A DNA stretch of 64,000 nucleotides from Micromonospora sediminicola (GTDB lineage: Bacteria; Actinomycetota; Actinomycetes; Mycobacteriales; Micromonosporaceae), in contig NZ_FLRH01000003.1 of NCBI RefSeq assembly GCF_900089585.1, forward strand, positions 2,866,501-2,930,500, read 5' to 3'. Positions 48,701-59,432 of this stretch are shown here, piece after piece (the first letter of the stretch is position 1; each line of letters starts with the position of its first letter). The translations under genes and the position numbers were made by a program. The notes below the pieces were generated by a model. The model ran no database searches, was not told the DNA's origin, and worked only from the letters and a program-made list of their open reading frames with translations.

Positions 48701-49543
48701 TCACGGCGGGCCGACCGCCGCGCCGGGCACCGACCTGCCACCAAGCGGTAGTCGATCCGTCGTCGGACCGCGCAGCGCCTCCACCGCGCCGGCGACGTCG
48801 AGGCGGGTGGCTTCGGCGACGGCGAGGTCCCGCAGCGAGACCGCCGCCCCGGCGTCGCCGAACTGGTACGCGAGTTGGCTGCGGTACCGGCCGGCGGCGT
48901 CCACCTTCGTCACCAGGTGATCGGCGATGTCGACAGCCACCTCGACGCCGGCCGGCACGCACCGCCAGGGGGTTGCCGCCGGTCGGCGGGCGACGTACGG
49001 CACGTCGCGCCACCAGAACGCGTCGGCGGCGATCCCGGCGACGGTCTCCGCGACGATCTGATGGTCGACGTGGTCGCCGAGCGCCTGCGGCGCGAGGACG
49101 AGGTCGGCGTCCGCGAGGTAGGCCCGCAGTGCCGGTGCGAGCATCTCGACCGCCGGATCGCCGCGGCGGACGCCGGCGAACAGCGCGTCCGCGTCCGCGT
49201 ACCCCCGGTGGGGTGCCTCGGCCAGCGGGAGATGCACCGGGCGTACACCGAGCACCGCGCAGGCGGTCCGGTCCTCGGCGCGGCGCAGCGCCATGTAGTC
49301 GACGTCGGCCGGCAGTCCCTTGTCGAGTTGGCAGGCCAGGGCGAACGCCGGCGGGTCGGGAACGGTCGCGGTGAAGCAGGTGACGACCCGCACGGTCCAC
49401 CCGGCCGCCACCAGCGCGGCGAGGGTGCCGCCGGCGGAGAAGACCGCGTCGTCCAGGTGCGGGCTGACCGCCACCGCCCGTCCGGCGATCCGGTGCCGGT
49501 CGCCGGCGGTCGTCGCGGCGGCGCGGCCATCGCGGCCGGTCAC
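48701..49543 (-). CDS. PIG-L family deacetylase, last gene of the inositol/YcaO operon
   Basis: This 280-residue protein has the zinc site of PIG-L/MshB enzymes: VSPHLDDAVFSAGGTLAAL (PHxDD) near residue 27 and GDHVDHQIVAE (HxxH) near 150. Known members remove N-acetyl groups from GlcNAc linked to inositol or other aglycones. With a GT4 and an inositol-phosphate synthase in the same operon, deacetylation of an aminosugar-inositol intermediate is inferred. GTG 49543 overlaps the GT4 stop as GTGA. Confidence 0.88.
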   Translation of the reverse strand: MTGRDGRAAATTAGDRHRIAGRAVAVSPHLDDAVFSAGGTLAALVAAGWTVRVVTCFTATVPDPPAFALACQLDKGLPADVDYMALRRAEDRTACAVLGVRPVHLPLAEAPHRGYADADALFAGVRRGDPAVEMLAPALRAYLADADLVLAPQALGDHVDHQIVAETVAGIAADAFWWRDVPYVARRPAATPWRCVPAGVEVAVDIADHLVTKVDAAGRYRSQLAYQFGDAGAAVSLRDLAVAEATRLDVAGAVEALRGPTTDRLPLGGRSVPGAAVGPP

Positions 49544-50781
49544 AGCAGGTGCGGGGCCGCGCGGAAGCGGCAGGTCGGGTCCACCGGCGGATCGGGGATC
49601 TCCGGTACGTCGCGGGACGGCTTGTCGTACCCGCTGACGATCCGGTCGGCGACGACCGGCCAGCTCCACCGCCGCTCGACGTCTCGGCGGGCCTGTGCGG
49701 CGAGCCGGCGGCGCAGCGCCGGGTCGTCGAGCAGCCGGCGGACGGCCCCGGCGAGCGCCGCCGGATCCCCGGCCGGCACCAGCACGCCGTTCTCGTCGGG
49801 GCGGACGCAGTCGCGGACGCCCACCACGTCGGTCGAGACGACCGGCAGTCCGCTCGCCATCGCCTCCAGGATCGTGTTGGAGAAGCCCTCGGCGTAGGTC
49901 GGGCTCACGAAGATCCCACCCCGGGCGTAGACCTCGTGGGCCAGCTCGTAGGGCACCGCGCCGAGCAGTTCGGTCACGCCGGTGAGTCCCAGCTCGGTGA
50001 TGCGCCCAGCGACGGTGTCCAGGTCGGGGCCGATCCCGGAGAGCAGCAGCCGCACCGGCACCGCGTCCGCGCGTAGCTTGGCGACCGCGTCGAGCAGGTC
50101 CAGCACGCCCTTGCGGACGTCGATGCGACCGTGGTAGAGCAGCACCGCCGGATCGGACACCCGACCGGGGTCCGTCACCGGTACGAAACGTTCGGCGTCG
50201 GTGGCGCCCGGCACCACGGTGAAGCGGGCCGGATCCAGCTCGTGACGCCGGCACACCTCGGCGGCGAACGACGGCGACCCGATCAGCAGGGCCGGGGCGT
50301 GCGTGAAGACGGCCCGCACGAGCGTCCGGTGGGTGGTGCAGCAGGTGCCCACCCAGTGCCCGTCGCCGCCCTGCACGGACACCACGGCGGGCAGTCCTGC
50401 GGCGCGGGCCGCGCGCAGCACGGCGAGGCCGTTGGGATAGGCGTACTGGGCGTGCAGCACGTCGAAGGGCCGGCGGGCGTGCAGCCGCAGGATCGTCTCG
50501 GTCATCTCGTCGACGTCGGCCTCGAAGTCGGCCGGCTCGCCGCGGACCACGGCCTGCTCGCCACGCGCCTCCAACGCGTGCACCTCGACGCCGGCGGGCA
50601 CCCGCTCCGGTGGGGGCGGCCCTCCGCCGTACACGGCACGACCCGCCCGGTCGGCTCGGTACTGGGAGATCAGGGTGGGTTCGTGGCCGGCGCGGACCAG
50701 GTGCCGCAGCAGGTTCTCGGCGTACGCGCTCATACCGGACACCGCCGGCCAGTAGCGGCGGGACACGAAGCAGATCCTCAC
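49540..50781 (-). CDS. GT4-family glycosyltransferase of the inositol/YcaO operon
   Basis: This 413-residue GT-B enzyme has an N-terminal Rossmann half (ICFVSRRYWPAVSGMSAYAENLL, the glycine-rich acceptor-side loop) and a donor half with GRIDVRKGVLDLLDAV and the EX7E motif in YAEGFSNTILEAMASGLP. It would transfer a nucleotide-activated sugar, by context to an inositol-derived acceptor as MshA does. GTG 50781 overlaps the isomerase stop as GTGA. The donor is unknown; the divergent epimerase at 58404 may supply it. Confidence 0.88.
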   Translation of the reverse strand: MRICFVSRRYWPAVSGMSAYAENLLRHLVRAGHEPTLISQYRADRAGRAVYGGGPPPPERVPAGVEVHALEARGEQAVVRGEPADFEADVDEMTETILRLHARRPFDVLHAQYAYPNGLAVLRAARAAGLPAVVSVQGGDGHWVGTCCTTHRTLVRAVFTHAPALLIGSPSFAAEVCRRHELDPARFTVVPGATDAERFVPVTDPGRVSDPAVLLYHGRIDVRKGVLDLLDAVAKLRADAVPVRLLLSGIGPDLDTVAGRITELGLTGVTELLGAVPYELAHEVYARGGIFVSPTYAEGFSNTILEAMASGLPVVSTDVVGVRDCVRPDENGVLVPAGDPAALAGAVRRLLDDPALRRRLAAQARRDVERRWSWPVVADRIVSGYDKPSRDVPEIPDPPVDPTCRFRAAPHLL

Positions 50782-51659
50782 GCGCCCACCTCCGCGGCGA
50801 CCGCGGGCCGCGACGCGTGGCTCGACGCCGCCCGCTCCGCGTCGCGCAGCGCGGCCAGCGCGGCGGGCACCAGCGTGTCGGCCCGGTGCGCGTCGCGGGA
50901 CAGTTCGAGGCTGACCAGGCCTCCGTAGCCGACCTGGGTGAGCGCGCCGAGCACGGCCGGGAAGTCGAGGTCGCCCTCGCCGGGCGCGCGGTGCTCGTGC
51001 CGGCCGCGCGGCATGTCCTCGATCGCGCAGGCGCCGAGCCGGCCGGCGAACGCCTGCACCGCGGCGGCCGGCTCGTGGCGGCCGGCCACCAGGCAGTGCC
51101 CGGTGTCCAGGGCCAGGGTGAGGCCGGGCACCTCGGCGGCCAGGCGGGCCCAGTCGTCGCAGTCCTCGACGAGCATTCCCGGCTCCGGCTCGAACGCGCA
51201 GCGCACCCCGCGTCGTTGCGCGTACGCGACGACGTCGTGAACGCCGTCGACGAGCCAGCGCCAGCACCGGTGGCGGTCGGCGCCGGGCTCCGGGACGCCC
51301 GCCCAGAACGACACCGCCTCGCTGCCGAGGCCGGCCGCCACGTCCACGCAGGTGCGCAGGAAGTCACGCCGTCGGACCCGGTCGGTCCCGTCCGGCGACA
51401 CGAGGGTCGGGTGGTGCTTGCGCCGCGGGTCGAGCAGGAACCGCGCGCCGGTCTCGACCACGCTCGCGAGTCCGAGCGCCCGCAACCGGCGGGCCAGCCG
51501 GTCGGTCCGCGCGGCCAGGTCCGCCGCGAACGGGTCGTGGTGTGCCACGTCGAGGGTGAGCGCGACCCCGTCGTAGCCGCAGTCGGCGAGCAGGGTGAGC
51601 GCGTCGTCGAGGCGGTGCGAGGTCAGGCCGTTGGTGTTGTAGGCGTAGCGCAGGGTCAT
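50778..51659 (-). CDS. TIM-barrel sugar-phosphate isomerase/epimerase
   Basis: This 293-residue protein belongs to the xylose-isomerase-like AP_endonuc_2 superfamily. It starts LRYAYNTNGLTSHRLDDALTLLADCGYDGVAL, and metal ligands are expected in CAFEPEPGML, LALDTGHCL and the C-terminal GGLVSLELSRD. Related enzymes isomerise or epimerise sugars and inosose or dehydrate keto-inositols (IolE, IolI). With Gfo/Idh and inositol-phosphate synthase in one operon, action on an oxidised inositol or sugar is plausible. Both ends overlap neighbours by 4 bases. Confidence 0.85.
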   Translation of the reverse strand: MTLRYAYNTNGLTSHRLDDALTLLADCGYDGVALTLDVAHHDPFAADLAARTDRLARRLRALGLASVVETGARFLLDPRRKHHPTLVSPDGTDRVRRRDFLRTCVDVAAGLGSEAVSFWAGVPEPGADRHRCWRWLVDGVHDVVAYAQRRGVRCAFEPEPGMLVEDCDDWARLAAEVPGLTLALDTGHCLVAGRHEPAAAVQAFAGRLGACAIEDMPRGRHEHRAPGEGDLDFPAVLGALTQVGYGGLVSLELSRDAHRADTLVPAALAALRDAERAASSHASRPAVAAEVGA

Positions 51660-53143
51660 CGCCCGCTCCGCTGCACGGCGTGCCGGGTGGGCTCCCGGTA
51701 GAGCGGATAGAGCGGGCCGATCGTGCGGGCCACCGCCGCCAGGTCGAGCCAGGCGTCGGCGGCGCCGAGCCGTTCCCGGCCGGCCTGGTCGAGGACCACG
51801 GGCGCGGCGCCGGCGTGCGGCGGAGTCCCGAGACCGACCAGCGGTGAGTCCCGCTCCCGCAGGCGTTCGATCCCGCGCGCCGCGATCCGTCCGTACGACA
51901 TGGTTTCCGCCTCCAGCCCGGGCACGATCACCTTGGCCACCGTCGCGCCCTCCCCGGGCGCGACGACGACCAGCACGTCGAAGTCGGCGAGCCGGCGCAG
52001 CAGTTCGGCCAGCAGCGCGCCCTGGTCGTCGAGGCTGCCCGGCGCGACGGTGGGCAGCGCGCTGAGGGGCACGCTGTCGCGGCGGGCCAGCACCACCGGT
52101 TCCAGCAGCGCGAGCAGTTGCGCGCCGTCGAGGTGCGTCCAGCCGCGCATGGCGGTGATCGCCCGGCTCTCCTGCGCCTCGGCCGGCCGGGCGAACTCCC
52201 GCCGCCAGTACGCCTGCGGCGCGACCGGCCGCAGCAGGTCCAGCGGTGCGTGCGAGAAGACCTTGCGGGATCGCGACGAGACGTACTCCAGCAGCGCCTT
52301 GCGCAGGGCGACCTCCCGGTCCGGGTGCACGGCCTCGCCGCAGGCGGTGACCGCCAGTGCCGGTGTCTCGGGCTGTCGGTCGATGCCGACCACATGCACG
52401 TCGGGCATGCCGAACGCGGTCGAGGCGAGCTTGGGCAGCACCTCGATGCCGGCGTCCGCCAGGCGGTCCAGCATCAACCGGATGACCGGGTCGTGTACCT
52501 CGTCGACGTCGATCACGACGCCGGCGTCCATGGCCCGGAACGCGGTGGTGTTGCCGTCGCGTTGCAGCAGTTCGAGCAGGCCGTGCGCGACCGCCCGCTC
52601 GACGGTGTCGCCGGCGCCGGAGCCGTTCGTGATCACCGGGATCAGCCGCTCGGCCGGGTCCTGCCACGGCAGGTCGGCGCCGTCCGCCGCGCAGAACTCG
52701 GCCGGCACCAGCACCGTCTCACCGGTACGCCAGCGCAGCGTGGGCAGCCAGGAGCGGGGCTGGTCGTCGTCGACCACCGTGCCGGCCGGCAGGACCAGTG
52801 AGCGGGGATCCACCACCCCGTGCGCACCGACCGCGCCGCGAAGCTCGCGGTAGGAGGCCCGGCGGGGCGTCATCGTCCGCAGGTGGCCGTGCAGCAGCAG
52901 GGCCTCCGCCAGCTCCCCGTACGCGCCGGTGCGGGCCTGCTCGACGGTGGCGCCGTAGCCGACGGCGGCGGCCCGGGGCCAGCCGGCGCCCAGGTGGTCG
53001 GCGGAGATCACCGGTACACCGAGGCGGTCCAGCCCGGACACGTCGAAGTCGCCCACCTCGCCGGCCGGCAGGGCGTCCGCGAGCCGGTCGGCGACCGACC
53101 GGGCCGAGGTGATGGGCGTGCGCGGTTCGACGGCTCGGGTCAT
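51656..53143 (-). CDS. YcaO-domain ATP-dependent enzyme
   Basis: This 495-residue protein carries all three YcaO nucleotide/Mg motifs: GYGATVEQARTGAYGELAE (62-80), NGSGAGDTVERAVAHGLLEL to R195 (173-195), and REVALRKALLEYVSSR (276-291). YcaO enzymes use ATP to activate a backbone amide, forming azolines, thioamides, amidines or similar. The C-terminus lacks the PxPxP tail of azoline-forming members, and no E1-like, ocin-ThiF or TfuA partner is adjacent. No precursor peptide gene is seen, so a small-molecule substrate is possible. ATG 53143 has GGAG 6 bases upstream. Confidence 0.9.
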   Translation of the reverse strand: MTRAVEPRTPITSARSVADRLADALPAGEVGDFDVSGLDRLGVPVISADHLGAGWPRAAAVGYGATVEQARTGAYGELAEALLLHGHLRTMTPRRASYRELRGAVGAHGVVDPRSLVLPAGTVVDDDQPRSWLPTLRWRTGETVLVPAEFCAADGADLPWQDPAERLIPVITNGSGAGDTVERAVAHGLLELLQRDGNTTAFRAMDAGVVIDVDEVHDPVIRLMLDRLADAGIEVLPKLASTAFGMPDVHVVGIDRQPETPALAVTACGEAVHPDREVALRKALLEYVSSRSRKVFSHAPLDLLRPVAPQAYWRREFARPAEAQESRAITAMRGWTHLDGAQLLALLEPVVLARRDSVPLSALPTVAPGSLDDQGALLAELLRRLADFDVLVVVAPGEGATVAKVIVPGLEAETMSYGRIAARGIERLRERDSPLVGLGTPPHAGAAPVVLDQAGRERLGAADAWLDLAAVARTIGPLYPLYREPTRHAVQRSGR

Positions 53144-53967
53144 GTCAGCTCCTCGATCGGGATCGGGCCGGCCACCGGCTGCCCGCGCAGGTGCCGGTCG
53201 AACAGGGCTAGCACCTGCTTGCGGGCGACGGGTGCCGCGTACTCGAAGGGGGTGGCGACCGCGTCGAAGTCCAACTCCTCGACCAGGTCGCGCGCCTGGC
53301 GCAACTCGGCGTGCGAGAGCGGGATCTGGGCGTGGTAGGCCTTGTGGCAGGAGAGCGCGACCGGCGTCTCCCCAGCCACCTCCACCTTGATCAGGTCGCC
53401 GACGAACAGGATCCCGCGCCGCTCGTCGTGCAGCACGCTGTGCCCCGGAAAGTGGCCGCCGCTGCGGTACATGGTCAGGCCGGGCGCGAGCGGATGCCGG
53501 TCGTCGGTCGGCCAGGTGACCTGGAACGCCTTGGTCCAGACCAGGTCGTCGACGCCGATGGCGAGGACCGGCGGGGCCAGTTCGTCCTGGAGTTGCCACA
53601 GCGCGCCGTATCCGTGTACGTGGCTGGCGCCGAGCGCCACCAGGCCGCCGCGGGCGCGCAGCTCGGCGATGGCGGCGGCCGGATACCAACCGGCGGCCTC
53701 CCAGCCGACCTGGCCGACGTCGGTCTCGATCACCCAGCCGGTGCTGCCGAGGCCGAGCTGCGGGTCGCTCCAGTAGCCGGTCACTCCGGGCGCGACGGCG
53801 GCCGAGCGGGCCTGTCGGCCGACCGCCACCTCGTCGGCCGCGAGGAACCGCCAGCCGTCCGGGGGAAGCGCGTTGCGCACGTCGGTGCAGACCGGGCAGG
53901 ACGGCGGCGGGCCGAACCACCGCTGCCAGTGGCCGCAGTTCGTGCAGGCGTAAGGGCGCAGGGGCAC
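53140..53967 (-). CDS. Zinc-ribbon plus metallo-beta-lactamase-fold protein
   Basis: This 275-residue protein begins with a rubredoxin-like zinc ribbon (Cys8, Cys11, Cys24, Cys27). The rest is a metallo-beta-lactamase fold: strands with STGWVIETDVGQVGWEA, ASHVHGYGALW (116-121) where HxHxDH is expected, SGGHFPGHSVL (His172, His176), LFVGDLIKV (Asp191) and a C-terminal Tyr/Glu-rich end. The D-H of the metal motif is replaced, so activity may be altered, for instance binding one metal or none. GTG 53967 has AAAGGA 6 bases upstream, 2 bases after the Gfo/Idh stop. Confidence 0.82.
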   Translation of the reverse strand: MPLRPYACTNCGHWQRWFGPPPSCPVCTDVRNALPPDGWRFLAADEVAVGRQARSAAVAPGVTGYWSDPQLGLGSTGWVIETDVGQVGWEAAGWYPAAAIAELRARGGLVALGASHVHGYGALWQLQDELAPPVLAIGVDDLVWTKAFQVTWPTDDRHPLAPGLTMYRSGGHFPGHSVLHDERRGILFVGDLIKVEVAGETPVALSCHKAYHAQIPLSHAELRQARDLVEELDFDAVATPFEYAAPVARKQVLALFDRHLRGQPVAGPIPIEELT

Positions 53968-53969
53968 GG

Positions 53970-54962
53970 TCAGGTCCTTTCGGCGGCGGTGTGCAGCAGT
54001 TCGTACAGGTGCAGGTCGCGGGTCAGCGGCCACTGCCAGTCGCCGCCGCGGACGGCGTCGGCGAAAGCCTGTGCCTGTGCGGTGAACGGGCTCATCCCGG
54101 TGTCGAACGGCACCGCCTCGGCGGTGCCGGTCTCGGCGTCGAGTCGGGTCAGCGTGCCGCCGGCGGTCTGGCCGAGGGTGTCGGCGGCGACGAGTTGGGC
54201 GCGGGTGCCGACGACCTCCAGCCGGCGGCGGGGCAGCGGGTCGGCGGTGTTGAACGAGACGTGCGCCTGCACCAGCACCCCGCCGCCGGTGACGCCGGTC
54301 AGCATCGCGCCGTCGTCCACTCCGTACGGATGCACCCGACGTTGGGTGCGGACGGTCAGCTCGGCCAGGTCGTCGCCGAGCAGCACGCCGATGAGGTCGA
54401 CGCCGTGCGGGGCCAGGTCGGCCAGGGCGCCGCCGCCGGAGCGCGCCGGGTCGATGCGCCAGTTGTCGTGCGGCCGCCCGTCCGGGCTCCATCCCGGCGG
54501 CAGCCAGCAGCCGTAGACGATCCGCACGGCGGTGACGGTGCCCAGGTCGCCGGCGGCGACGAGGTCGGCGATGCGCCGGTGAGCGGGGTGGAACCGTTGG
54601 TCGAAGGCGGCTCCGGCGAGCGTGCCCCCGGCCGCGTCGACCAGCCGTCGGGCGTCGGGCAGGCTGGCCGCGAGCGGTTTTTCGCACAGCACCGGCCGGC
54701 CCGCCTTGGCCACCGCCGCGACCACGTCGGCGTGCGTGTGGTTCGGCGTCGCCACGTGCACCGCCTCGATCTCGTGGTGGTCGAGCAGTTCGTGCAGGTC
54801 GGTTGCGGCGATCCGGTCGGGGGCGAGCGCGCGGGCGGCGGCGGGGTCGCTGTCGCAGGCGCCGACGAGCCGGTGTCCCGCCGCGCGGATCGCCGGCACG
54901 ACGTGGTCGCGGGTGACCCACCCGCAGCCGACGACTCCCCATCCGAACGGCCGCACGGTCAC
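53970..54962 (-). CDS. Gfo/Idh/MocA-family oxidoreductase
   Basis: This 330-residue protein has an N-terminal Rossmann domain (WGVVGCGWVTRDHVVPAI), the EKP active-site motif (LCEKPLA, 94-96), and a C-terminal GFO domain with a histidine in LADLAPHGVDLIGVLL. Family members oxidise or reduce a sugar or inositol hydroxyl with NAD(P). Beside an inositol-phosphate synthase, an inositol- or sugar-oxidising step is inferred. GTG 54962 overlaps the methyltransferase stop as GTGA. Confidence 0.9.
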   Translation of the reverse strand: MTVRPFGWGVVGCGWVTRDHVVPAIRAAGHRLVGACDSDPAAARALAPDRIAATDLHELLDHHEIEAVHVATPNHTHADVVAAVAKAGRPVLCEKPLAASLPDARRLVDAAGGTLAGAAFDQRFHPAHRRIADLVAAGDLGTVTAVRIVYGCWLPPGWSPDGRPHDNWRIDPARSGGGALADLAPHGVDLIGVLLGDDLAELTVRTQRRVHPYGVDDGAMLTGVTGGGVLVQAHVSFNTADPLPRRRLEVVGTRAQLVAADTLGQTAGGTLTRLDAETGTAEAVPFDTGMSPFTAQAQAFADAVRGGDWQWPLTRDLHLYELLHTAAERT

Positions 54963-56107
54963 CACCGCTCGGGCAGGTCGAGCAGCAGCCGACGGCGTAC
55001 CGCGTCCGGGCCCGGCTCCGCCGGCCAGCGCTCCGGAAGGTAGCCGGCGGCCCGGCCGCCGTACTCCTCGGCCCAGCGCGGGTCGGGCCAGCGACGGGCG
55101 CCGTCGACGTAGAGCGGGTTGGGTCGCAGGGGGCTCGCCGGGGCCGGTTGCAGCAGCCCCGGGTCGGCCGCCGGGCCGGCGGGGTCCCGGGCCAGGCCGA
55201 CGGCCTCGGTGCCGGTCAGCTCGGCCGGAACCGCGGGTTCGGGTGGCCGCCCGGCGACCGCGGCCGCCGTCAGCTCCTCCTCGGCGTAGGCGGTGGCCCC
55301 CGGCAGCAGTGCGGTCCATTGCTCGGCGGGCAGGGGCAGCCCGGCTTGGCCGGCCGGATGCCGCGCGTTGTGCAGGTGACCCAGCAGCAGCGCCCCGCCG
55401 GGCCCGGCGCAGGCCAGGGCGGCGGCCACCGCAGCGGCCTTGTCCGGAAGGAAGTAGAGGGCGTCGTGGCAGGCCACGTGCCGGGCAGCCGTGGGCGGTG
55501 GCAGCGGCCAGGCGGCGGTCAGGTCGGCGCAGACCAGGGACACCCGCGCGCCGGGCGGAAGGACGAACCGGCGGGCCAGCCACAGCTTCGCGAAGACCAC
55601 GTCGACTCCGACGGCATCGCGGTGTCCGTGACGGACCAGGTGACGCAGCAGGTGCCCAGCGCCGCAGGCCAGGTCGACCACGGGCCGGCCGGCGGGCGGG
55701 TGTGCGGCGGTCAGCGCCAGGGCGGCCAGCCAGCTCGGATCGGACCAGCGATGGAGGAAGTACACCCCGACCCGACCGAGACCGAGCAGCCGGACCGCCT
55801 CGCGCAGGGTGCCGGCGCGCAGCGCGGTGCGGAGCTGCTCCGGCGGGGGTGGTGCCGCCTCCCACCAGTCGTCGGCGTCGCCGAGCAGCAGCACGGCGGC
55901 GGCATCGGGTTCGCCCGCGTCGAGCGCGGCCACCGCCCGCTCCCGCAGATCGTCGCGCCCCGGGCGCAGCCAGGGGATGCCCTCGACCACGGGCCAGCGG
56001 CGAAGACCGTCGGCGAGCGTGTGCCGGGTGTCCGGGTGCAGTGTCGTGCCGTCGGGGCCGCGCCACCGGAAAGTAGCGCCGACGGGCGCGGAGGGGGACG
56101 CGGTCAC
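54959..56107 (-). CDS. SAM-dependent methyltransferase of the inositol/YcaO operon
   Basis: This 382-residue protein has a Trm112-like N-terminal segment (TLADGLRRWPVVEGIPWLRPGRDDL), often seen in front of small-molecule methyltransferases, and a class I core with VVDLACGAGHLLRHLVRHG (motif I), VGVDVVFAKLWLARR and HVACHDALYFLPDKAAAVAAAL. The C-terminal 90 residues are proline-rich and unassigned. GTG 56107 overlaps the HD-like gene stop as GTGA. The acceptor is unknown. Confidence 0.85.
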   Translation of the reverse strand: MTASPSAPVGATFRWRGPDGTTLHPDTRHTLADGLRRWPVVEGIPWLRPGRDDLRERAVAALDAGEPDAAAVLLLGDADDWWEAAPPPPEQLRTALRAGTLREAVRLLGLGRVGVYFLHRWSDPSWLAALALTAAHPPAGRPVVDLACGAGHLLRHLVRHGHRDAVGVDVVFAKLWLARRFVLPPGARVSLVCADLTAAWPLPPPTAARHVACHDALYFLPDKAAAVAAALACAGPGGALLLGHLHNARHPAGQAGLPLPAEQWTALLPGATAYAEEELTAAAVAGRPPEPAVPAELTGTEAVGLARDPAGPAADPGLLQPAPASPLRPNPLYVDGARRWPDPRWAEEYGGRAAGYLPERWPAEPGPDAVRRRLLLDLPERW

Positions 56108-57030
56108 AGCCCGGCCGCCCGCAGCACCGACCGGTGGTAGTCCACCACCGGGCCGTCGTGCACCAGCGCCAGGTCCACCAGGGCCTGGTTGGCGGTGAAC
56201 GCCGCCGCGCGGGCGTGGTGGTGCACCTGGAGCACCCGGTCCAGCACGTCGGCGGCGTGGAAGGCCCGCCCGAGCGGGGTGCCCGCGTCCGCCCGGGCCG
56301 GCAGCACCGCGGCCACCCGGGCCGCGACCCGGCCCGGAAGTTCCGTGAGCGCCAGCGCGGTGAGCCGGTCGACGACCGGATCGAGGTACGCGCCGAGCAG
56401 TTGCTCACCGGCGAAGCCCGCGTCCGGCATCCGGGCGTTGTGCAGATGGTGCGCGAGGCCGAGCAGGAACGCCTCCGCCGGGTCGGCGCCGACGTCGTCG
56501 GCGAGCAGCGCGCCGTACACCCCGACGGCCCAGCAGTGGTCGGCGTGGCTCTCCGGCGGCTCCAGGACCAGCCGGGAACGTCCCGGCGCGGTGGCACCGG
56601 CGCGGGGCTGCCGGCACAGCGCGACCGCGAACGCCGGCACCGGCCGATCGGGGATATCCCCGCCGGCCGGGTCGGCCAGCGCGGCCCGGATTCGACGCCG
56701 AGTGGTCGGGTGCAGCGCGCCGTCTAGTTCCCCTGCGGCCCGGGTGAGCACGCTCGCCACCTCGGCCGGGACCAGGCCACAGTCGCCGAGGGTGGCCGCG
56801 TCGAGCCCGCCGAGGCGGGCGCCGGCCAGCGCGGCGGCGCACTCCCGGTCGGCCACGTCCGCCGGATCGGCGCCTGCGGCGAGGGCCGCCCAGGCCCGGA
56901 CGAACGCCCGTTCGGCCGCCGAGCCGTCGGCGTGCGCCACCCGCACCCGCTTCAGGTCCCCGACCTGCCGCAGCGTGGGCACCGAGACGGCGAGCCGGTC
57001 GACCGGCGCGGCGGCCAGCACGGTGGTCAT
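56104..57030 (-). CDS. HD-domain-like protein of the inositol/YcaO operon
   Basis: This 308-residue, largely helical protein has histidines and acids placed as in HD hydrolases: ESHADHCWAVGVYGALLAD (His162, His165), GLAHHLHNARMPD (His194, His195, in place of the HD pair) and FHAADVLDRVLQVHHHA (Asp about 248). Because HD is replaced by HH, the metal site is unusual. Phosphohydrolase or diiron oxygenase (inositol oxygenase-like) activity are both possible, and the inositol context makes the latter worth testing. ATG 57030 overlaps the inositol synthase stop as ATGA. Confidence 0.6.
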   Translation of the reverse strand: MTTVLAAAPVDRLAVSVPTLRQVGDLKRVRVAHADGSAAERAFVRAWAALAAGADPADVADRECAAALAGARLGGLDAATLGDCGLVPAEVASVLTRAAGELDGALHPTTRRRIRAALADPAGGDIPDRPVPAFAVALCRQPRAGATAPGRSRLVLEPPESHADHCWAVGVYGALLADDVGADPAEAFLLGLAHHLHNARMPDAGFAGEQLLGAYLDPVVDRLTALALTELPGRVAARVAAVLPARADAGTPLGRAFHAADVLDRVLQVHHHARAAAFTANQALVDLALVHDGPVVDYHRSVLRAAGL

Positions 57031-58205
57031 GCCGGCGCGTCCAGCCAGTCCAGCAGGGCCCGCTCCTGGGCGTGCAGCGCGTGCTCCGGCGTCCGCCCGT
57101 CCCGGGTGACCGGCGCCTTGAAGAAGTAGCCGAGTTGTTCCTGCGCGCCGCGCTCGCCCCGGCGGCCGGCCTCGGCCAAGAGCCGCACCAGGTCCAGCAC
57201 GAGCGGCGCGGCGAGAATCGAGTCCCGGCACAGGAAGTCGACCTTCAGTTGCATCCGTTGGCCGAGGAAGCCCACGAGGTCGATGTTGTCCCAGGCCTCC
57301 TTCGCGTCGCCGCGCGGTCGGTAGTAGTCGATCCGCACCACGTGGTCGTCGACGTCGTAGCCGAGAATCTGGTTGAGCACGGAACCCTTGGTGTCGAGCT
57401 TGCTCGCCAGCGACGACGGGTCGTCCAGGATCTGCCCGTCCCGGTTGCCGAGGATGTTTGTCGAGTACCAGCCCTCCACGGTCAACGCACGGGACCGGAA
57501 GGCCGGTGCGAGCACGGTCTTGACCAGCGTCTGACCGGTCTTGCCGTCCTTGCCCGCGACCGGCACCCCCGCCCGTTCGGCCAGTTCCAGCAGAGCCGGC
57601 ACGTCGGCGCCGAGACCGGGCGTGAAGTTGACGTAGGGACAGCCCTCCTGGATCGCCGCGTAGGCGTAGAGCAGTCCCGGTGTGATCACCGGATCGTCGG
57701 CGTCCAGCCCGGCCTCGAATGCGGCCGGGCTGCGCAGCGCCGGTGACGCCGGGTCCGGCCGCGCCTCGGTGGAGGCCAGATTCACCACCACGACCTGATG
57801 CGCGGAGATCTCGGCCCGGAACCGGGCGATATCGGCGCGCAGATGCGCCACCCGCTCCCGCAACGGCCCGATGGGCACCGTGTTGGCGCCGGTGGCGTTG
57901 CGGCAGTACGCCGGGTCCGCCACCGCCGGCCAGGGGCTGATCCGGCCGAGCGGCCCGGCGACGGTGTCCAGCTGAGCCGGCTCGACCACGCGATGCACGT
58001 GCGCCGCCTTGGCCAGGTCGTCCGGCGCCAGGTCCCAGCCGCCGAAGACCATCGACTCGTACGGCACCAGATCCGTGCGGTGCGCCAGCGGCAGCCCGGC
58101 CATGTCCCGCATGCCCAGGCGCAGCAGTTCCACCCCGGCTATCGCCGTCGTCGCCACGGCGCCACCCAGTCCGACCACCGCGACCCCGATGCGCTGCTCC
58201 GTCAT
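57027..58205 (-). CDS. Inositol-3-phosphate synthase (myo-inositol-1-phosphate synthase)
   Basis: This 392-residue protein has the NAD site VVVGLGGAVATTAIAGVE, YESMVFGGWDL, and the catalytic GKDGKTGQTLVKT (lysines at 219, 222 and 229), followed by GWYSTNILGNRDG. It should convert glucose-6-phosphate to inositol phosphate in the cytosol. It is somewhat longer than the mycothiol-linked Ino1 of actinobacteria (about 360 residues) and belongs to another branch. GGGAGG lies 4 bases before ATG 58205. It is the first gene of the nine-gene operon and defines the likely starting metabolite. Confidence 0.92.
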   Translation of the reverse strand: MTEQRIGVAVVGLGGAVATTAIAGVELLRLGMRDMAGLPLAHRTDLVPYESMVFGGWDLAPDDLAKAAHVHRVVEPAQLDTVAGPLGRISPWPAVADPAYCRNATGANTVPIGPLRERVAHLRADIARFRAEISAHQVVVVNLASTEARPDPASPALRSPAAFEAGLDADDPVITPGLLYAYAAIQEGCPYVNFTPGLGADVPALLELAERAGVPVAGKDGKTGQTLVKTVLAPAFRSRALTVEGWYSTNILGNRDGQILDDPSSLASKLDTKGSVLNQILGYDVDDHVVRIDYYRPRGDAKEAWDNIDLVGFLGQRMQLKVDFLCRDSILAAPLVLDLVRLLAEAGRRGERGAQEQLGYFFKAPVTRDGRTPEHALHAQERALLDWLDAPA

Positions 58206-58403: not shown

Positions 58404-59432
58404 GTGAAGGTGCTGATCGCGGGCGGAGCGGGGTTCATCGGCAGCACTGTCGCCTCGGCGTTGACCGATGCCGGACACACGCCGGTGGTGCTGGACAACC
58501 TGGTCACCGGGCGGCGCGAGTTCTGCCGCGGACGGGCGTTCCAGCTCGGCGACATCGGCGACGCCGACGCGGTGGACCGCATGCTGCGCCGGCATCCGGA
58601 CATCGGGGTGGTGGTGCACTGCGCCGCGCTGATCGCGGTGCCCGACTCGGTGGCCCGCCCGGTGGACTACTACCGGGCCAACGTGTCGGCGACGCTGGAG
58701 TTCGTCGACCGGCTACTTGCCCACGGCGTACACCGGTTGATCTTCAGCTCGTCCGCGGCGATCTACGCTCCGGGCGCGGGCCTCGGCGTCGACGAGACGT
58801 CGCCGCTGGAGGCCGGCAGCCCGTACGCGCAGACCAAGCTGGTGGTGGAGCGGATGCTCGCCGACATCGCGGCCAGCAGCCCGCTGCGGGTGCTGTCCCT
58901 GCGCTACTTCAACCCCATCGGCGCGGACCCCGCGATGCGAACCGGGCTGCAGACCGCGGTTCCGTCGCACGCCCTGGGCCGGCTGATGCTCGCGCACCGA
59001 GCCGGTGTGCCGTTCGCGGTCAACGGGCTCGACTGGCCCACCCGCGACGGCTCGGGACTTCGCGACTACGTGCACGTCTGGGACCTGGCTGTGGCACACC
59101 TGCGGGCACTGGAACGCTTCGACGACATCTTCGCCGTCGGTGCCGCTCCGCACGTGGCGGTGAACCTGGGCAGCGGCACCGGCACCACCGTGCTCGAACT
59201 GGTCGCGGCGTTCAACGCGGTGGTCGACCGGCCGGTCCTGGTGCGGGAGGCGCCGCGTCGGCCCGGCGACGCCGCCGGCGCGTACGCCCGGGGTCGCCGG
59301 GCCCGTGAGTTGCTGGGCTGGCGGGCGCGACGTGACCTCGCCACCGGCATCGCCGACTCACTGGCCTGGCACGACCGGCGCGAGCGGCTTCTCGGGGATC
59401 TGGCACCGCGCCGTCGGCAACTCGCTGGCTGA
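58404..59432 (+). CDS. NAD-dependent nucleotide-sugar epimerase (GalE-like)
   Basis: This 342-residue SDR-family epimerase has the cofactor motif LIAGGAGFIGSTVA at the N-terminus, the catalytic SSSAAIYA serines, and GSPYAQTKLVVE (YxxxK). The core LSLRYFNPIGADP is typical of UDP-glucose 4-epimerases. GTG 58404 has GGGGAGG about 7 bases upstream. It is divergent from the inositol/YcaO operon across 198 bases, so a shared regulatory region and a role in making the GT4 donor are likely. Confidence 0.88.
   Translation: MKVLIAGGAGFIGSTVASALTDAGHTPVVLDNLVTGRREFCRGRAFQLGDIGDADAVDRMLRRHPDIGVVVHCAALIAVPDSVARPVDYYRANVSATLEFVDRLLAHGVHRLIFSSSAAIYAPGAGLGVDETSPLEAGSPYAQTKLVVERMLADIAASSPLRVLSLRYFNPIGADPAMRTGLQTAVPSHALGRLMLAHRAGVPFAVNGLDWPTRDGSGLRDYVHVWDLAVAHLRALERFDDIFAVGAAPHVAVNLGSGTGTTVLELVAAFNAVVDRPVLVREAPRRPGDAAGAYARGRRARELLGWRARRDLATGIADSLAWHDRRERLLGDLAPRRRQLAG

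Follow-up and report, generated by a model that had tools for sequence, protein, structure and literature searches.

A recurrent nine-gene operon with inositol-phosphate synthase and YcaO genes: a mobile pathway to a putative protective cyclitol

What could be made by nine closely packed genes that open with an inositol-phosphate synthase and go on to a stand-alone YcaO enzyme, a glycosyltransferase and a deacetylase? The question is raised by nine minus-strand open reading frames (ORFs) that span positions 48701-58205 of the window, a stretch of 64,000 nucleotides from the 6.89 Mb genome of Micromonospora sediminicola, and are transcribed from the 58205 end. Their order is Ino1–HD–MT–Gfo/Idh–MBL–YcaO–TIM–GT4–PIG-L (names expanded in Table 1). 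From Ino1 to PIG-L the junction distances are -4, -4, -4, +2, -4, -4, -4 and -4, so that the ORF coordinates confirm the seven 4-base overlaps and the single 2-base gap described in an earlier sequence-only reading of this DNA. That reading had proposed a distinct, coupled inositol pathway, a central inference that the present analysis strengthens. We propose, with moderate confidence, that the nine genes encode a mobile pathway whose product, a small glycosylated cyclitol that probably stays inside the cell, would protect against ultraviolet (UV) or related damage.

The co-occurrence of the nine families in other genomes, which had been suggested as a check, was strongly positive: all nine are present at 32 loci, and at least four phyla share both the families and their order, which puts the set far beyond chance. 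Distribution was scanned with a TIM alignment against 84,980 species genomes, yielding more than 550 relatives; the genera named here come from the best 80. Within the Actinomycetota they include Micromonospora (which holds the closest relatives of the operon), Pseudonocardia, Streptomyces, Actinomycetospora, Geodermatophilus, Modestobacter and Rubrobacter, and the same 80 include Methylobacterium, Lichenibacterium, Belnapia, Roseococcus, Corallococcus and Hymenobacter. The nine-gene order is identical in Micromonospora, Pseudonocardia, Streptomyces, Geodermatophilus, Rubrobacter and Acetobacteraceae. Elsewhere one family is missing or relocated, MT being absent from the Corallococcus and Hymenobacter operons and MBL lying outside the Methylobacterium operon. 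The TIM gene was found in 78 of 79 Methylobacterium genomes, 7 of 40 from the Rubrobacter family, 3 of 198 from the Bacteroidota and 6 of 299 in a Pseudomonadota sample, all six of which are also among the Methylobacterium matches. The YcaO gene was present in 10 of 397 genomes sampled from the host phylum, nine of the ten in the family that holds Rubrobacter. Among 251 Micromonosporaceae genomes sampled, a close YcaO (84% identity) occurs in one other Micromonospora, with the full nine-gene order; the operon is patchy within this family.

Several features indicate that the genes are selected together. Overlaps of 4 bases are common at all junctions across loci (73/84 at YcaO|TIM and 39/40 at MBL|YcaO), and for seven of the proteins, compared pairwise across 73 loci, the distances correlate at 0.85-0.98, a correlation to which shared genome ancestry contributes. 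In Actinomycetospora the operon is split into an Ino1-to-YcaO half and a TIM-to-PIG-L half, collinear on the same strand and about 15 kb apart, and both have been retained; in Methylobacterium the MBL gene is kept at a separate locus in all ten genomes tested. A Gfo-MBL fusion of 671 aa is found in one Rubrobacter (locus L028) and an MBL-YcaO fusion of 773 aa in Hymenobacter setariae (L047), and these fusions tie the Gfo/Idh, MBL and YcaO steps together; on a Hymenobacter plasmid MBL and YcaO are separate but overlapping genes. Plasmid-borne copies of the operon are present in Hymenobacter volaticus, Roseomonas haemaphysalidis and Methylobacterium. Conserved order, correlated distances, retained split genes, fusions and plasmid copies therefore argue for a mobile, co-selected pathway, and the earlier claim that the genes form one coupled pathway is upheld by the recurrent order, overlaps, correlated distances and fusions.

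Searches of plasmids by tblastn returned four records with the YcaO query and 32, mostly from Streptomyces, with the TIM query. The Hymenobacter volaticus plasmid copy shows two irregularities: its Gfo/Idh is annotated as two overlapping pieces (L158 13063-14111), and its GT4 is unannotated and was matched in two frames (L158 17332-18563). Frameshift, sequencing error and decay are candidate explanations for both.

Table 1. The operon genes and the neighbouring GalE gene, in window coordinates
Gene	Product or family	Position	Strand	Length	Remarks
1 Ino1	inositol-phosphate synthase	57027..58205	-	392 aa	
2 HD	HD-domain phosphohydrolase-like protein	56104..57030	-	308 aa	
3 MT	S-adenosylmethionine (SAM)-dependent methyltransferase	54959..56107	-	382 aa	
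4 Gfo/Idh	Gfo/Idh/MocA dehydrogenase	53970..54962	-	330 aa	
5 MBL	metallo-beta-lactamase fold	53140..53967	-	275 aa	
6 YcaO	stand-alone YcaO (ATP-dependent amide-activating enzyme family)	51656..53143	-	495 aa	
7 TIM	xylose-isomerase-like TIM barrel	50778..51659	-	293 aa	
8 GT4	GT4 glycosyltransferase	49540..50781	-	413 aa	
9 PIG-L	PIG-L deacetylase	48701..49543	-	280 aa	
GalE	UDP-glucose 4-epimerase	58404..59432	+		287.6 bits, cut-off 262.3; divergent from operon

Pfam supported the family assignments made at first sight, except that of HD, which is weak by sequence. Ino1 matches at E=5e-60, with PF07994 and PF01658 both over cut-off; 7nwr is its closest solved relative, and its K269, K273, K302 and K363, conserved in 15 relatives, align with K274, K278, K306 and K367 of the Archaeoglobus fulgidus enzyme (1u1i), which are catalytic. 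Both domains and the four active-site lysines thus place it in the inositol-phosphate synthase family. The HD match (8e-4) is under cut-off; the predicted structure has a predicted local distance difference test score (pLDDT) of 90.6, and its top Foldseek matches, at E 0.025 or worse, are HD-domain phosphohydrolases, which is suggestive. H162, H165, H194, H195, N198 and D261 are invariant in this protein, which is likely a phosphatase. MT is a class I enzyme (Methyltransf_25, 1e-9) with an N-terminal region of its own, and appears to be an optional tailoring enzyme. Gfo/Idh matches at 4e-26. For MBL, which matches at 9e-6, a structure predicted with confidence has strong structural matches that confirm the fold; H116, H118, H172, D191 and H208 are invariant, and the nearly invariant C8, C11, C24 and C27 point to a zinc ribbon at the N terminus. 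YcaO matches PF02624 at 7e-51 (174 bits) over positions 2-325 of the 325 in the profile, that is, the full-length ATP/Mg2+-binding domain, and E77, E80, N173, E191, Q194, R195 and E286 are invariant in 14 sequences. TIM is an AP_endonuc_2 protein (6e-38) whose metal ligands are likely E157, D185, H188, H221/H223 and E252. GT4 matches at 5e-35 and PIG-L at 5e-17. The closest solved relatives of PIG-L are the glycopeptide pseudoaglycone deacetylases Dbv21 and Orf2, enzymes that release the amino group of N-acylglucosaminyl residues in glycopeptides, and a deacetylated hexosamine is therefore likely.

The divergent GalE gene is probably a tenth member of the set; its relatives adjoin the operon in other Micromonospora and in Geodermatophilus, Modestobacter and Acetobacteraceae. 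Promoter and terminator scans gave no useful result.

From these identities a pathway may be sketched, whose predicted product is a cyclitol that is glycosylated, bears an amine and has a bond activated by YcaO. Ino1 would cyclise a hexose phosphate to inositol phosphate, from which the HD protein would remove the phosphate. Gfo/Idh and TIM, in either order, would convert the ring to a keto- or enol-cyclitol by oxidation together with isomerisation or dehydration; alternatively, TIM might prepare the substrate for Ino1. MT would methylate the cyclitol in the lineages that have it. YcaO enzymes phosphorylate an amide oxygen, and a nucleophile then displaces the phosphate. Here YcaO, with the zinc-ribbon MBL, may use ATP to phosphorylate the oxygen of a carbonyl or amide group, the phosphate then giving way to a nucleophilic nitrogen or sulfur. 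GT4 would attach an N-acetylhexosamine from a sugar donor adjusted by GalE; PIG-L would then free the amine of this sugar. No exporter was found with the operon.

A body of circumstantial evidence bears on what such a compound might do. A spore photoproduct lyase gene flanks the operon in Actinomycetospora (where it overlaps PIG-L), Rubrobacter marinus and Roseomonas, a gene of the uracil-DNA-glycosylase superfamily stands at +1 in 37 loci, mostly of Methylobacterium, a gene of the Fpg/Nei family follows the operon in two Rubrobacter, and Geodermatophilus has Ada/AlkA nearby. Most carriers belong to genera exposed to sun or drought and familiar from leaf, air, desert and rock habitats. Compounds that absorb ultraviolet-A (UVA) light are reported from Methylobacterium (Yoshida 2017, as cited in PMC12573535). 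The repair neighbours, the habitats of the carriers and the Methylobacterium compounds together favour a protectant against UV or stress. A more specific proposal is tentative and in our estimation fairly unlikely: the product would be a new class of bacterial sunscreen, a mycosporine-like enol or enaminone cyclitol derived from inositol, in whose synthesis YcaO, working on a cyclitol and not on a peptide, would replace the ATP-grasp ligase, and this product would be the UVA compound of Methylobacterium. The Methylobacterium compounds are reportedly highly polar.

On the Roseomonas plasmid two adjacent genes of the spore photoproduct lyase family follow the operon and mdoH (L159 17822-19943); we know of no report that this genus makes spores.

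Some observations weigh against a protective cyclitol pathway as drawn here. The link with DNA-repair neighbours was observed post hoc, without a formal null model, and in the stretch read no such neighbour was recognised in Micromonospora, Streptomyces, Corallococcus or Hymenobacter. MT is dispensable in some lineages. The nearest protein to Gfo/Idh in the PDB is a 1,5-anhydrofructose reductase, not an inositol dehydrogenase. TIM stands without an adjacent dehydrogenase gene in the ebo-type clusters and bare Ino1-TIM pairs compared below, so that the order of reactions drawn here is provisional.

Other products have to be weighed against the same evidence. The scattered, partly plasmid-borne distribution, the presence of Streptomyces, Micromonospora and Corallococcus among the carriers and the kinship of PIG-L with deacetylases of glycopeptide antibiotics would all suit a secreted, antibiotic-like aminocyclitol, a secondary metabolite of the aminoglycoside type; we nevertheless think this unlikely, since across genera the nine genes were not seen to be accompanied by a conserved gene for export, self-resistance or regulation, and near fixation in Methylobacterium is atypical of an antibiotic cluster. 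An envelope component, either the head group of an inositol-aminosugar glycolipid or a polysaccharide decoration, is a product we consider quite improbable: GT4 and PIG-L are paired as in glucosamine (GlcN)-inositol lipids, and mdoH-like or other glycosyltransferase genes lie downstream of the operon in Acetobacteraceae, but none of the nine proteins matches a membrane enzyme family such as the CDP-alcohol transferases or flippases, and we know of no role for YcaO in lipids. Mycothiol raises a closer comparison, because inositol-phosphate synthase, GT4 and PIG-L folds occur together in its pathway too and, of the two solved proteins nearest to GT4, one is MshA; the sequence-only reading had accordingly seen a gene-by-gene mirror of Ino1, MshA and MshB. 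This did not hold. Judged by the curated cut-offs of NCBIfam, Ino1 scores 39.2 bits against mycothiol INO1 (TIGR03450, cut-off 638), GT4 78.1 bits against MshA (TIGR03449, cut-off 462.5) and PIG-L 16.5 bits against MshB (TIGR03445, cut-off 224.35), whereas the host genome has a separate INO1 (667.9 bits) and MshB (363.5 bits), both over cut-off. The operon adds six other enzymes, and family searches found neither an MshC-like cysteine ligase nor an MshD-like acetyltransferase among the nine proteins. Mycothiol is not known to be made outside the Actinomycetota, and the Methylobacterium, Hymenobacter and Corallococcus carriers belong to other phyla. On the scores, the host paralogues and this distribution we reject membership of the mycothiol pathway; the resemblance is one of folds only, and a mycothiol-like low-molecular-weight thiol is very unlikely to be the product. 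What stands of the modified aminosugar-inositol that had been predicted is its distinctness from mycothiol and its inositol part, the aminosugar part being probable.

Most characterised YcaO enzymes use peptides, and the operon could on that ground be a cluster for a ribosomally synthesized and post-translationally modified peptide (RiPP), with YcaO modifying the precursor. This YcaO has the full domain and invariant acidic residues of the superfamily, and both the SagD model (TIGR03604) and a McrA-thioamidation model match it, though below their cut-offs, SagD far below (89.4, cut-off 219.25). It differs from the peptide systems in being co-operonic with cyclitol and sugar enzymes, without peptide partner genes, and in its fusion to the zinc-ribbon MBL in Hymenobacter. 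In family searches none of the nine proteins was an E1-like or TfuA partner, and the genes are too closely packed, with their 4-base overlaps, for a precursor gene to lie between them, the flanking short ORFs not having been systematically searched. Moreover, sister YcaO genes adjoin ABC (ATP-binding cassette) solute importers and polysaccharide deacetylases, which makes a small, sugar-like substrate more likely than a peptide. The RiPP reading was rejected on the SagD score, the missing peptide partner and the overlap geometry, and we can hardly credit it. The sister genes form a second system, in which a YcaO of the same subfamily stands beside an ABC importer, made up of SBP_bac_1 and two BPD_transp_1 permeases, without the other eight genes, in the Rubrobacter family (L027, L029) and in Micromonosporaceae (L020-L023); a polysaccharide deacetylase accompanies it in L020, L027 and L029, and the YcaOs of the two groups lie in different parts of the YcaO tree.

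A protective cyclitol pathway thus stays our preferred answer, and it would matter on several counts. Nine enzymes, near-universal in a dominant leaf-surface genus and moved between phyla partly on plasmids, apparently have no known product. YcaO, known almost only from peptides, gains a likely sugar or cyclitol substrate, and the operon may connect inositol chemistry with tolerance of UV and DNA damage. That no described pathway has this gene set, as had been supposed, agrees with our finding no description of the nine-gene operon in the literature searched on YcaO with inositol, Methylobacterium, Rubrobacter, cyclitol and sunscreen, subscription literature and MIBiG being outside the scope of that search.

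Among known systems, the ebo-type clusters of Streptomyces come nearest in their core. Their order is Ino1 - SCO3242-family prenyltransferase - TIM - EboA - TatD - EboE - EboF-like phosphodiesterase, and two of their members have counterparts in the operon: Ino1, at about 42% identity, and TIM, at 49-52%, the TIM tree placing their TIM in a sister clade to that of the operon. The operon has YcaO, MBL, HD, MT, Gfo/Idh, GT4 and PIG-L in addition, and family searches of the nine proteins found no EboA, UbiA-type prenyltransferase, TatD, EboE or EboF; membership was rejected, Ino1 and TIM being shared and the remaining genes not. All four Streptomyces plasmid records examined from the TIM search are of the ebo type. 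On these linear plasmids (L161-L164) Ino1 and TIM occupy the place that the sugar-phosphate cyclase EboD has in other bacteria, and a ScyD/ScyE family gene adjoins the cluster in three of the four. The description of the ebo genes (PMC5133447) places the cyanobacterial ones next to genes for the sunscreen scytonemin and notes fusions of EboA with a xylose-isomerase-like domain in actinobacteria. Adjacent Ino1-TIM pairs without an HD gene also occur in one Egibacteraceae genome, in which YcaO is absent (the only genome of the two tested for it), and in one Bacteroidota genome. Since the pair recurs both alone and in ebo-type clusters, TIM is tied to Ino1, and we infer that the two form a unit supplying the same cyclitol to at least two pathways. 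The Bacteroidota pair (L153 7759-11529) is followed by PabB (aminodeoxychorismate synthase component I, over cut-off) and a PabC-like gene, neighbours that hint at a p-aminobenzoate link or may be there by chance.

With inositol catabolism (IolG, IolE, IolI) the operon shares the Gfo/Idh and TIM folds, including a DTGHC stretch common to TIM and IolE, but with Ino1 it is biosynthetic, and the scores of Gfo/Idh against IolG (89, cut-off 355) and of TIM against IolE (41, cut-off 290) fall far short. Neither a sedoheptulose-7-phosphate cyclase nor an ATP-grasp ligase family is present among the nine proteins. If the proposed protective pathway is right, it would nonetheless resemble those of mycosporine-like amino acids and gadusol in its cyclitol core, its methyltransferase and an ATP-dependent amine condensation, and would differ from them in that Ino1 and YcaO would take the places of the cyclase and the ATP-grasp enzyme.

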